This document shows, in pieces, positions 50,476 through 54,823 of a DNA stretch of 64,000 nt (the stretch's first letter is position 1; each line of letters starts with the position of its first letter). Origin of the DNA: an uncultured Acidimicrobiaceae bacterium. GTDB lineage: Bacteria > Actinomycetota > Acidimicrobiia > Acidimicrobiales > SZUA-35. The notes under the pieces are model-generated. The model made no database searches and was not told the origin of the DNA. It worked only from the letters and a program-made list of their open reading frames with translations. The DNA lies in the NCBI GenBank assembly GCA_947259095.1, contig CAMYLA010000031.1:1-64000 (forward strand), given 5' to 3'. The position numbers and the translations under genes are program-made.

Positions 50476-51019
50476 TGCTGGTTTCTCTTTCTGTACTGTG
50501 CCCGATCGCCGATCTTGGTTCGACGGTGGGCGGTTGGCGGATGACGACCGACAGTTGCCCCGATCGCCCGTTTCGTGGTCGGTCCGGTGCCCATTCGGGC
50601 GCCCGGTCCGTGATTGTTGATTGTTGACTGATTGACTTGCGGTTGTCTGATGTGACGTGAAGCGGAATGCGTCCCCGAGGTTCGGTCTGAACCTCGGTTC
50701 TGCTATCGGTACTGCTGGATATTTCGTGGGTTACGAAGCGGCAGAATCGGTGAGTGCTCGATTTTCGAGCAGCCGGTTCCGCTGATTCCCAACTCTTGTT
50801 CGCAACGTGACCTCGAGCGTCGTCCGAATATTCAGGCCGTGCACTCGATCGAGTGGCCGCTCCGAGCCGGCGTCTCACGTACGTCGGTCCCCCATCCCTG
50901 CGGGGTTCCGGCCTCGAATCGACGGTCGACCCGACTATCAAGGCTAGACACCAGCGTTCAAACGAACACTAGATCTTGTGCTTACCGCCAGCCCCTTCGG
51001 AGCGACGCACAAGATGTGG
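50476..51019 (-). promoter_or_regulatory. Long hairpin-rich 5' leader of nrdJ
   Basis: From the predicted transcription start near 51019 to the nrdJ ATG there are about 544 nt with no convincing gene. Strong hairpins include 50675-50697 (CCGAGGTTC, ggtct, GAACCTCGG), 50755-50771 (7-bp stem, loop ttt) and the 14-bp palindrome CACTCGATCGAGTG at 50842-50855. A cobalamin riboswitch would be natural here, but I could not find its conserved core; only a GCCACT within the minus strand near 50850 resembles it. Function unresolved. Confidence 0.4.
50966..50981. promoter_or_regulatory. NrdR box (distal from promoter) upstream of nrdJ
   Basis: ACACTAGATCTTGTGC fits the NrdR palindrome (ACAC..., ...GTGT with AT-rich centre) with one change at the end. 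It lies about 45 nt downstream of the predicted start, where repressor binding could block elongation or cooperate with the proximal box. Confidence 0.6.
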
Positions 51020-52716: not shown

Positions 52717-53184
52717 TCAGGGCGCCTGAAGGCCCGCTTCGAGCTTGATGAGGCGTGCTTCCCGCTCGAAGTCGGCGATGTCGTTGAACGACTTGTAGAC
52801 GCTGGCGAACCGGAGGTACGACACCTCGTCGATATGGCGGAGGCGATCCAGGACGGCCAGGCCGACCCACTCCGAGGTGACGTCGGCCCCGTTTGATCTG
52901 GCCTCCTCCTCAACCCCACAGATGAGCCTCTCGAAGTCGGCCAATTCGACCGGGCGACCCTTTGATGCGGCGATCAGGCCCCTGCTGATCTTCTCCCCGT
53001 CGAAGGGTTCGCGGAGGCCGGACCGCTTGACAACGACGAGCGATGCTTCCTCCACTCGTTCGAACGTGTTGAATCGACGCTCGCAGGACGTGCACTCCCG
53101 GCGCCGCCGGATGGTCTCACCGCCATCGGCCGAACGAGAATCGATCACCCTCGTATCGGTTGCTCGACAGATCGGACACTGCAC
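52717..53184 (-). CDS. nrdR: Transcriptional repressor NrdR
   Basis: A 155-residue regulator of ribonucleotide reductase genes. The N-terminal zinc ribbon (C-P-I-C near the start and C-T-S-C-E-R-R-F) binds DNA; the ATP-cone domain (residues about 45-140, KRSGLREPFDGEKISRGL) senses ATP/dATP. GTG 53184 gives V-Q-C-P-I-C, matching the family start M-x-C-P-x-C; nine extra in-frame residues upstream are unlikely. TAGCTT lies 7 nt before this GTG and there is no SD, so it is probably leaderless, with its own promoter inside the gap after the SOS-controlled LysM gene. Confidence 0.96.
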   Translation of the reverse strand: MQCPICRATDTRVIDSRSADGGETIRRRRECTSCERRFNTFERVEEASLVVVKRSGLREPFDGEKISRGLIAASKGRPVELADFERLICGVEEEARSNGADVTSEWVGLAVLDRLRHIDEVSYLRFASVYKSFNDIADFEREARLIKLEAGLQAP

Positions 53185-53191
53185 TCCACTA

Positions 53192-53197
53192 AAGCTA
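53192..53197 (-). promoter_or_regulatory. -10 element TAGCTT, predicted leaderless start of nrdR
   Basis: On the minus strand TAGCTT (53197-53192) is followed by 7 nt and GTG 53184. The same hexamer and spacing precede the 8164 aminotransferase gene. Confidence 0.5.
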
Positions 53198-53207
53198 GCG
53201 GGCAACA

Positions 53208-53825
53208 TCAATCTAGAAGCTGCACCGGGATAACGATTTGCTGACCAACCCGGACCGTTTCACCTCCGTTCGCATCGGCGAGGGCGGCGACGAGCGGCCG
53301 AGGATCGGCGTTCGGTGCCAGCTGTCGCGCGATCGACCACAGCGAATCGCCGGGTTCGGCGACGACCACCTGCCCGCCCGGCGACAGGGCCGATGCCGCA
53401 GCATTGGTGCGGTCGGTGCCGGCCAAGCCGCCCGAGGGATGCTCCGAGGTTGGCAGGACGGCGGCGGCCGCAATGCCGTTGGATGCCGTCGCACCGAGAT
53501 CCTCCCAGGTGGAGGCCGGGGCTGACCCCTGGGACAGGCGGACCACCATCAAGCCGCCGAGGATCACCAACGTGACGGCGGCGAGGGCCAGCACCGTGCC
53601 CGCATCGTCGAGCATCGTCCGAACCAACGGCCGGATGCCGGCGACGGCTCCGGCATGCCCGTGGCCGATGGGGCCGCTCTCGACGGCGGAGGAGCCGATG
53701 GGTCGGCGGCCGACGGGCCCGGTGTTGTCGACCACCAACCGCAGCCGGGCGGGGCCACCGGGAGGGGCGGGCGCGGTGGCGGCTTTGAACGGGGAACCGG
53801 TGTGGGGGCGAAGTAGGGCAACCAT
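53208..53825 (-). CDS. LysM domain membrane protein in the lexA-nrdR position (Rv2719c/ChiZ-like)
   Basis: A 205-residue protein: a cytoplasmic N-terminus of about 70 residues, one membrane helix (TVLALAAVTLVILGGLMVV), a Ser/Ala-rich linker and a C-terminal LysM domain (QVVVAEPGDSLWSIARQLAP to VRVGQQIVIPV) for peptidoglycan binding. The position between lexA and nrdR equals M. tuberculosis Rv2719c and corynebacterial DivS-like genes, SOS-induced proteins affecting cell division. Three LexA boxes upstream support the same regulation. ATG 53825 follows GAGGAG at about 10 nt. Confidence 0.85.
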   Translation of the reverse strand: MVALLRPHTGSPFKAATAPAPPGGPARLRLVVDNTGPVGRRPIGSSAVESGPIGHGHAGAVAGIRPLVRTMLDDAGTVLALAAVTLVILGGLMVVRLSQGSAPASTWEDLGATASNGIAAAAVLPTSEHPSGGLAGTDRTNAAASALSPGGQVVVAEPGDSLWSIARQLAPNADPRPLVAALADANGGETVRVGQQIVIPVQLLD

Positions 53826-53906
53826 GACGCTGAGTCTCCTCGGGGGGTGTGACATTTTGGGTGGTGGAGCACCCGGTGGCCGATCGGGCCCGCTCGGTTC
53901 TCGCCA

Positions 53907-53922
53907 TCGAACAGCAGTTCGA
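53907..53922. promoter_or_regulatory. LexA box A (TCGAACAGCAGTTCGA)
   Basis: A perfect GAAC-N4-GTTC site with matching TC/GA flanks. It overlaps the predicted transcription start of the LysM gene. Confidence 0.9.
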
Positions 53923-53951
53923 ATGTAACTCGAACGGCAGTTCGAACACAA
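53922..53951 (-). promoter_or_regulatory. Promoter of the SOS-regulated LysM gene
   Basis: On the minus strand TTGTGT (53951-53946), an 18-nt spacer and TACATT (53927-53922). LexA box B fills the spacer and box A the start site, so LexA should exclude RNA polymerase. Confidence 0.55.
53930..53945. promoter_or_regulatory. LexA box B (TCGAACGGCAGTTCGA)
   Basis: A perfect GAAC-N4-GTTC site with TC/GA flanks, 23 bp centre to centre from box A, lying between the -35 and -10 hexamers of the LysM gene promoter. Confidence 0.9.
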
Positions 53952-53958
53952 CGCAGAA

Positions 53959-53974
53959 GCGAACAAACGTTCCA
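53959..53974. promoter_or_regulatory. LexA box C (GCGAACAAACGTTCCA)
   Basis: A perfect GAAC-AAAC-GTTC core (53961-53972) with unmatched outer flanks; 29 bp from box B, upstream of the LysM -35. Confidence 0.8.
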
Positions 53975-53995
53975 TCGGGGGTTTTTTGTCGATTG

Positions 53996-54011
53996 TCGAA
54001 CAAACGTACGG
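53996..54011. promoter_or_regulatory. LexA box D (imperfect, TCGAACAAACGTACGG)
   Basis: GAAC-AAAC-GTAC: one mismatch in the right half-site. It shares the AAAC spacer with box C and overlaps a TTGTCG that could be the -35 of lexA. Confidence 0.5.
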
Positions 54012-54038
54012 CCGCTGTGGCATAGTGGCTCCAGTCGT

Positions 54039-54054
54039 TCAAACAGACGTTCGA
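54039..54054. promoter_or_regulatory. LexA box E (TCAAACAGACGTTCGA)
   Basis: One mismatch (A for G) in the left half-site of TCGAAC-N4-GTTCGA. It is nearest to lexA, 134 nt before the start codon, probably near the lexA transcription start, consistent with autorepression. Confidence 0.7.
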
Positions 54055-54187: not shown

Positions 54188-54823
54188 ATGGGCGAGCATC
54201 AACTGACGAAACGTCAACGTGCCATACTCGAATACATAGAGAAGGAAATGCGGGGCCGGGGCTATCCCCCCTCGGTCAGGGAAATCGGGGCCGAAGTCGG
54301 CCTCACCTCCCCCTCTTCGGTGCACTCGCACCTGGCGACGCTGCAACGTCACGGCTATCTCATGCGCGATCCGTCGAAACCGCGAGCGCTGAAGGTCATG
54401 TGGGATCCGGTGAGCGGCGCGGTCGATGTTGAACGGCGTCCTGTTCGCCATGTGCCGCTCGTCGGTCAGGTGGCGGCCGGTACCGACGTGCTGGCCCAGG
54501 AACACATCGAGGAGATGCTTCCCGTCCCAACCGATCTCACCGGCGACGGGGAGCTGTTCATGCTCACCGTTCGAGGTGATTCGATGATCGAGGCCGGGAT
54601 TCTCGACGGCGACTATGTGGTGGCCAGGGTGCAGGCCACCGCAGACCAGGGTGACATCGTCGTGGCCGGGATCCCCGGCGACGAGGCCACGGTGAAGACC
54701 TACACGAAGAAGCGGGGCAAGATCGTGCTCCTCCCGGCCAACTCGTCGCTCGAACCGATGGAGTTCGATTCGGACGAGGTGCAGGTGTTCGGTCGAGTGG
54801 TCACCGTCATGCGGCGGCTCTGA
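54188..54823 (+). CDS. lexA: SOS-response repressor LexA
   Basis: A 211-residue LexA. The N-terminal winged-helix DNA-binding domain has PPSVREIGAEVGLTSPSSVHSHLATLQ. The self-cleavage site A-G is in GQVAAGTDV, the catalytic Ser in RGDSMIEAG and the Lys in ATVKTY. RecA-stimulated autoproteolysis releases the SOS regulon. ATG 54188 follows AGGGAG by 9 nt. Its 5' region shares the LexA-box array with the LysM gene, so both should be co-induced by DNA damage. Confidence 0.97.
   Translation: MGEHQLTKRQRAILEYIEKEMRGRGYPPSVREIGAEVGLTSPSSVHSHLATLQRHGYLMRDPSKPRALKVMWDPVSGAVDVERRPVRHVPLVGQVAAGTDVLAQEHIEEMLPVPTDLTGDGELFMLTVRGDSMIEAGILDGDYVVARVQATADQGDIVVAGIPGDEATVKTYTKKRGKIVLLPANSSLEPMEFDSDEVQVFGRVVTVMRRL

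Follow-up and report, generated by a model that had tools for sequence, protein, structure and literature searches.

Five predicted LexA boxes probably form two back-to-back promoter modules between lexA and a divergent LysM gene in an uncultured Acidimicrobiaceae bacterium

Introduction

Multiple boxes at the lexA gene of Mycobacterium tuberculosis were reportedly described by Dullaghan et al. in 2002. The sections of PMC8151990 that deal with this region give four SOS boxes: one belongs to lexA, and the Rv2719c operon has the other three and a PafBC motif. This operon is printed as Rv2019c-Rv2017c in the discussion of that paper and as rv2719c in its figure legend. In the same sections, the PafBC motif of M. 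tuberculosis is given as TGTCGG, TGTCAG or TGTCAC, followed by N10 and TA-N3-T (PMC8151990). Control of the Rv2719c-nrdR-Rv2717c operon by LexA in M. tuberculosis is stated in the relevant part of PMC4181829, and Rv2719c, DivS and YneA are presented in the passages of PMC3989709 that treat them as proteins that restrain division.

Here, we describe the lexA region of an uncultured Acidimicrobiaceae bacterium (GTDB order Acidimicrobiales, SZUA-35) and its counterparts in related genomes. The window is the whole stretch of DNA that was analysed, 64,000 nucleotides of contig CAMYLA010000031.1 of the assembly GCA_947259095.1. A literature search on LexA and SOS boxes in this group found no paper.

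Results

The lexA gene of the window lies at 54188..54823 on the plus strand and encodes a protein of 211 aa, which matches TIGR00498 with 223 bits (cut-off 110.95) and carries the DNA-binding domain (PF01726) and the S24 peptidase (PF00717) of a LexA repressor. The own genome holds a single match to this LexA at E <= 0.001, and among the matches listed its identity is 75 and 77% to Acidimicrobiales MAGs and 72% to Candidatus Microthrix, these being the best named relatives. Judged by its LexA, the window comes from a relative of the Acidimicrobiales. On the minus strand, divergent from lexA, lies a LysM gene of 205 aa (53208..53825), followed by nrdR (52717..53211, minus; TIGR00244, 170 bits, cut-off 124.65). 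As the LysM gene overlaps nrdR at its end, the two probably form one operon, a feature absent from the earlier note. The LysM protein is YneA/ChiZ-like. It has a single hydrophobic segment near residues 77-95, predicted from hydropathy to lie in the membrane, and one C-terminal LysM domain at residues 158-200 (PF01476), and its gene is divergent from lexA, as in proteins of the YneA/ChiZ/DivS type. The gene takes the place of Rv2719c. Its best NCBIfam model is YneA (NF010723) with 23.9 bits, below the curated cut-off of 60. The product of the neighbouring gene had been proposed to be a LysM protein that probably blocks cell division during SOS; its identity as a LysM protein of this build stands, and it probably stops cell division.

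The LysM ATG (53823-53825, minus) and the lexA ATG (54188, plus) are 362 bp apart, and all five boxes lie inside this interval: A (TCGAACAGCAGTTCGA, 53907-53922), B (TCGAACGGCAGTTCGA, 53930-53945), C (CGAACAAACGTTCC, 53960-53973), D (CGAACAAACGTACG, 53997-54010) and E (CAAACAGACGTTCG, 54040-54053), given here without strand. The core GAAC-N4-GTTC is perfect in A, B and C and has one mismatch each in D and E, which confirms the earlier note, where five boxes had been claimed in these places. Compared with the Gram-positive SOS box, the 14-mer CGAAC-N4-GTTCG, A and B are exact and C, D and E have one mismatch. The same note had called A and B fully symmetrical 16-mers, which holds for the outer six plus six bases and fails for the central four. 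Allowing no more than a single mismatch, GAACN4GTTC sites number 45 in the whole window, compared with 24.3 on average (sd 5.2) after shuffling; by arithmetic, the shuffles lead one to expect about 0.06 sites per 148 bp, and five are observed. The density in the own genome, a MAG of 6.39 Mb with 7.1% contamination, was measured by pattern searches. Two exact copies of GAACN4GTTC separated by a gap of 1-31 occur there only as A-B and B-C (reversed control 0). The exact 14-mer CGAACN4GTTCG occurs 33 times in this genome; allowing up to one mismatch gives 788 sites, compared with 193 when the pattern is reversed.

Besides the array, other boxes were seen in the own genome. An exact CGAACN4GTTCG stands upstream of recA. 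When ten ORFs next to further exact 14-mers were searched with Pfam, the products identified were RecA, a 2OG-Fe(II) oxygenase and an HNH protein; seven ORFs had no match. At three loci (L073, L079 and L086), exact LexA-like 14-mers overlap the starts of frames reading IEHMFD or IEHLFD; those tested gave no Pfam match, and we take these frames to be perhaps DUF222/HNH-type genes. On a contig of 18.5 kb (C84, locus L081), CGAACACTTGTTCG occurs three times, at 286, 4053 and 15424, and is possibly part of a mobile element or a repeated gene family. Finally, a lone perfect GAACCTCGGTTC lies at 50689-50700 of the window, approximately 214 bp upstream of a class II ribonucleotide reductase gene, and is absent from the exact 14-mers of the own genome.

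Both genes have promoter-like elements among the boxes. On the LysM strand (minus), the -35-like TTGTGT (53946..53951) and the -10-like TACATT (53922..53927) are separated by a spacer of 18 bp and make up the promoter P1; an alternative -10, TTACAT (53923-53928), overlaps TACATT and gives a spacer of 17 bp. As had been predicted, B is enclosed by this spacer and A, which has a counterpart in relatives, covers the expected start site. C lies upstream of the -35, 29 bp from B. Among 99 genomes that have three or more boxes, a box inside the spacer of TTGNNN-N16..19-TANNNT was found on the LysM strand in 45 (mean of 0.68 when the flanks were shuffled) and on the lexA strand in 9. The survey of spacers and spacings covered 177 genomes, six of which (G245, G249, G268, G277, G285 and G351) had entered through the triple pattern only.

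On the lexA strand (plus), an extended -10-like element, TGTGGCATAGT, is located at 54016..54026. D lies 10 bp upstream of the lexA -10, and E is located downstream of this -10 near the expected start. In 24 of the 34 family genomes, a box stands equally far, 9-11 bp, ahead of CATA[CG]T, and by this rule D was not found in the remaining 10. The right half of D reads GTACG in 16 of the 24; E is present in 20 of the 24, with the left half CAAAC in 15 of these 20. Since the deviations of D and E recur in most relatives, the mismatches themselves are conserved. It might be argued from the one mismatch in each that D and E are chance matches to the box. Considering that boxes recur at these positions in the relatives and that most of them share the deviations, a chance origin is extremely improbable, and it was rejected. 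The proposal that the five boxes are LexA operators is supported by their conservation beside lexA and by their placement on promoter-like elements; the binding of LexA and the strength of each operator are inferred.

The earlier note had staked its reading on the conservation of A-C in close relatives. By our assignment, the full set A-E is present in 11 of the 34 family genomes with a LexA match, and most of the others have it partial or rearranged. One family genome (G015) has no box at all. In the 11 five-box genomes, the A-B spacing is 23-26 bp in five, 33-38 bp in five and 52 bp in one. With A 33-52 bp from B in six of the 11, its position relative to the promoter cannot be identical throughout. 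The B-C spacing is 27-30 bp in nine genomes and 41 bp in two, and D-E ranges from 34 to 47 bp. C and D are 37 to 560 bp apart, the upper value being reached in L039, where the modules are separated by 560 bp. Four further genomes (G012, G022, G030 and G034) retain D and E and lack both the A-C set and a LysM match by tblastn. The array is two back-to-back promoters, with A, B and C for the LysM-nrdR operon and D and E flanking the extended -10 of lexA. It had been read as one array for one gene; with C-D at 37-560 bp against 23-52 bp for the other spacings, there are two separable modules instead.

These spacings also bear on a reading in which five LexA dimers would bridge or loop the region as one cooperative array and repress the LysM gene in a graded manner. 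On the one hand, five sites of differing match quality within 148 bp would suit such a mechanism, and the conserved deviations of D and E are compatible with graded affinity. On the other hand, the spacings of adjacent boxes in the 177 genomes peak at 15, 24, 28-31, 34 and 41 bp, which fits no single helical phase, the two halves can lie as far apart as in L039, and in the four genomes named above D and E stand alone. Looping and helical phasing were rejected on this basis, so that the looped repression suggested in the earlier note finds no support, and such a cooperative array appears very improbable. Additionally, we know of no bridge formation by LexA dimers.

The arrangement in two modules could have arisen from a four-box array in which C was an ancestral operator shared by both promoters, D being a duplicate of this lineage that allowed the modules to separate. 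In other families of the order, box C often ends in GTTTG and overlaps a lexA -35, with a spacer of 17 bp to a hexamer beginning with TAC in six of seven loci (for example, TTGCCA-17-TACTTT in L049 and L054), so both promoters may originally have shared C. Similar spacings of A, B and C were seen in loci of the phylum and in three Bacillota loci, and in L029 a single box stands in place of the C and D of other genomes. However, the seven loci were chosen by eye, L069 did not fit, and a loss of D elsewhere is equally possible. We put the chances of this shared origin at about even. It would be an origin for the two-module arrangement, which we prefer, and not its alternative.

Beyond the family, exact triplets were found in 26 of 296 Actinomycetota genomes (reversed control 0), and all 26 of these loci lie beside lexA. 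The array is LexA's own and is conserved. The reading covered 57 lexA loci, which come from 55 of the 61 genomes and include the own one; a weak second match in G020 was omitted. The phylum sample comprised 149 genomes, of which 144 had a LexA match and 118 were examined; the 26 omitted, one of which (G137) belongs to the order of the window, had the weakest LexA matches. Among the 118, G139 and G064 had almost no upstream sequence. When boxes differing from the 14-mer at no more than one position were counted within 450 bp, at least three were present in 52 of the 118 genomes, at least four in 25 and none in 12, against a mean of 0.017 boxes per upstream region in shuffles, which here, as in the surveys of the P2 motif and of the spacings, keep base counts and not dinucleotides. 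Because tblastn for LysM missed many relatives, LysM genes were sought with a profile made from 49 seed domains. By this profile, a LysM gene divergent from lexA is present in 45 of the 52 genomes that have three or more boxes, in 6 of the 10 that have two and in 7 of the 56 that have one or none. These counts are not independent because the genomes are related to one another. The seven many-box genomes with no LysM match include three (G159, G154 and G084) that hold only 374-575 bp upstream. Among the 80 loci listed of 539 in a GTDB scan, at least three boxes were present in 55, with a LysM match in 50 of these 55. Array size follows the divergent LysM gene.

As a separate observation, denser arrays with 15-bp steps occur in several relatives (G004, G006, G008, G010, G016 and G026), and boxes 14-15 bp apart were seen at L023, L027, L028, L030, L037, L038, L046 and L047. 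In L037 and L038, the spacings repeat in a pattern of 15, 24 and 29-30.

The LysM gene has a second promoter-like element, P2, with the sequence TGTCAC-N10-GAGACT (53833..53854, minus), which ends 7 nt before the ATG and lies downstream of all five LexA boxes; the earlier note does not mention it. P2 resembles the PafBC/RecA-NDp promoters of mycobacteria. Compared with their strict motif (TA-N3-T), its -10 has GA for TA, that is, G for the first T, and is one base off. In all 12 genus genomes, the LysM ATG follows TGTCAC-N10-NANNNT by 6-7 nt. The leader TGTCA[CG]A[CG] was found in 42 of the 63 order genomes, namely 12 of 12 in the genus, 17 of 22 in the rest of the family and 13 of 29 in the rest of the order, where G351 of the spacing survey is counted again. 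Of 43 matches, 41 keep A2 and T6 of the -10, ten bases past TGTCA[CG], and 39 of these 41 have the ATG 6-7 nt past the -10; the whole P2 pattern is present in 41 of the 63 genomes against about 0.6 in shuffles. The fixed distance of 6-7 nt from the -10 to the ATG suggests leaderless transcripts, and those from P2 are perhaps of this kind. GAGGAG at P2 can double as a Shine-Dalgarno sequence, such a four-mer being present in 34 of the 41 matches, and it can also be merely a ribosome site.

Exact forms of this promoter exist elsewhere in the own genome. The recA gene has, in addition to its LexA box, TGTCAC-N10-TAGGTT, and rmuC of the window (PF02646; 28705-29886, minus) has TGTCAC-N10-TAGGGT 8 nt before its ATG; both fit the mycobacterial form TGTCAC-N10-TA-N3-T exactly. 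The rmuC gene of another genus genome (L327) carries the same kind of TGTCAC motif. Across the 12 genus genomes, 65 copies of the form fused to the ATG were counted and none of the reversed pattern; all 12 genomes carry this form at the LysM gene. The own genome also contains pafA, followed by a WYL/WCX frame with no HTH detected at the place expected for pafB, and then pafC. Several genus genomes carry an ATG-fused TGTCACAC promoter before a conserved small protein of approximately 62-88 aa (MASAQLQLI...WKLD...EVGRAGIA.ARAAL; loci L231, L314, L322, L323, L326, L328, L329 and L337), and the one tested, at L322, gave no Pfam match.

The constancy of P2 in the genus and of its distance to the ATG, together with the presence of PafA and PafC, would also suit a reading in which P2 mainly drives the induction of the LysM gene and A-C only trim a background activity of P1. 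In the rest of the phylum, however, the P2-like motif is rare (15 of 111 genomes in the loose form, 1.6 in shuffles; 16 of 111 in the exact TA form, 0.72 in shuffles), and the many-box arrays are wider spread (52 of 118). We consider a leading role of P2 to be unlikely, and induction of the LysM gene through both LexA and a PafBC-like activator to be probable.

Discussion

Our preferred explanation, which we regard as very likely as a whole, is a divergent LexA-controlled region of two modules, to which a PafBC-type P2 is added at the LysM ATG. In this mechanism, LexA dimers on A, at the start site, and on B, in the promoter spacer, would block RNA polymerase at P1 of the LysM-nrdR operon, and C, just upstream, would help this repression. 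The lexA gene itself would be repressed by LexA bound at D, which precedes the -10, and at E, which covers the start site. When DNA is damaged, RecA would trigger the self-cleavage of LexA, and both promoters would open. The membrane-bound LysM protein would then delay septation, NrdR would be co-expressed with it and LexA would be replenished. P2, probably leaderless and placed right at the ATG, would allow the LysM gene to be induced independently of RecA and LexA.

In a broader version, the SOS division checkpoint of the Acidimicrobiales would be a two-input gate, with the LexA-governed P1 and its three operators as one input and the leaderless, PafBC-type P2 as the other, and the genes with an ATG-fused TGTCACAC (rmuC, HNH nucleases and the conserved small protein) would constitute a PafBC regulon with a promoter form of its own. 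In this case, since P2 starts at the LysM ATG below all LexA boxes, damage that is sensed without RecA may still stop division. This broader version seems to us a matter of equal chances. To our knowledge, no PafBC regulon with its own promoter form has been described in the class of the Acidimicrobiales.

Our results suggest that the operator layout of lexA and the LysM gene, which is known from M. tuberculosis, is old and widespread, and that how many boxes there are depends less on the needs of lexA itself than on whether the division gene is present. In a large and little-studied environmental class, the region also allows one to test clearly whether a single division inhibitor receives input from two damage pathways.

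Other lexA loci show the same kind of neighbourhood. Based on the relevant passages of PMC3989709, the region resembles divS/lexA of Corynebacterium glutamicum, where an SOS-induced division suppressor lies beside lexA, and yneA/lexA of Bacillus, where a LexA-controlled division inhibitor adjoins lexA; the latter also applies to sosA/lexA of staphylococci, as far as the part of PMC6851548 on this locus describes it. The Bacillota loci that we read (L292, L296 and L304) have three boxes, with up to two mismatches, spaced similarly to those of the window, and no D- or E-like box was found in them.

The closest likeness is to lexA/Rv2719c(chiZ)-nrdR-Rv2717c of M. tuberculosis, where, by the sections cited above, lexA also lies beside a LysM-nrdR operon, multiple SOS boxes are present and the LysM operon has a PafBC motif. 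The premise of the earlier note that one to three boxes are usually described for a lexA region needs correction, because those sections of PMC8151990 already describe four. With this precedent, the array of the window is a variant of the mycobacterial one. As far as these sections go, lexA of M. tuberculosis answers to one box, whereas lexA of the window has two, D and E, and an extended -10 of its own; compared with the four boxes of M. tuberculosis, the window has five, and its P2 abuts the ATG. In summary, the variation here lies in the fifth box, the second operator of lexA and the separable modules; the kind of region itself is known from M. tuberculosis.
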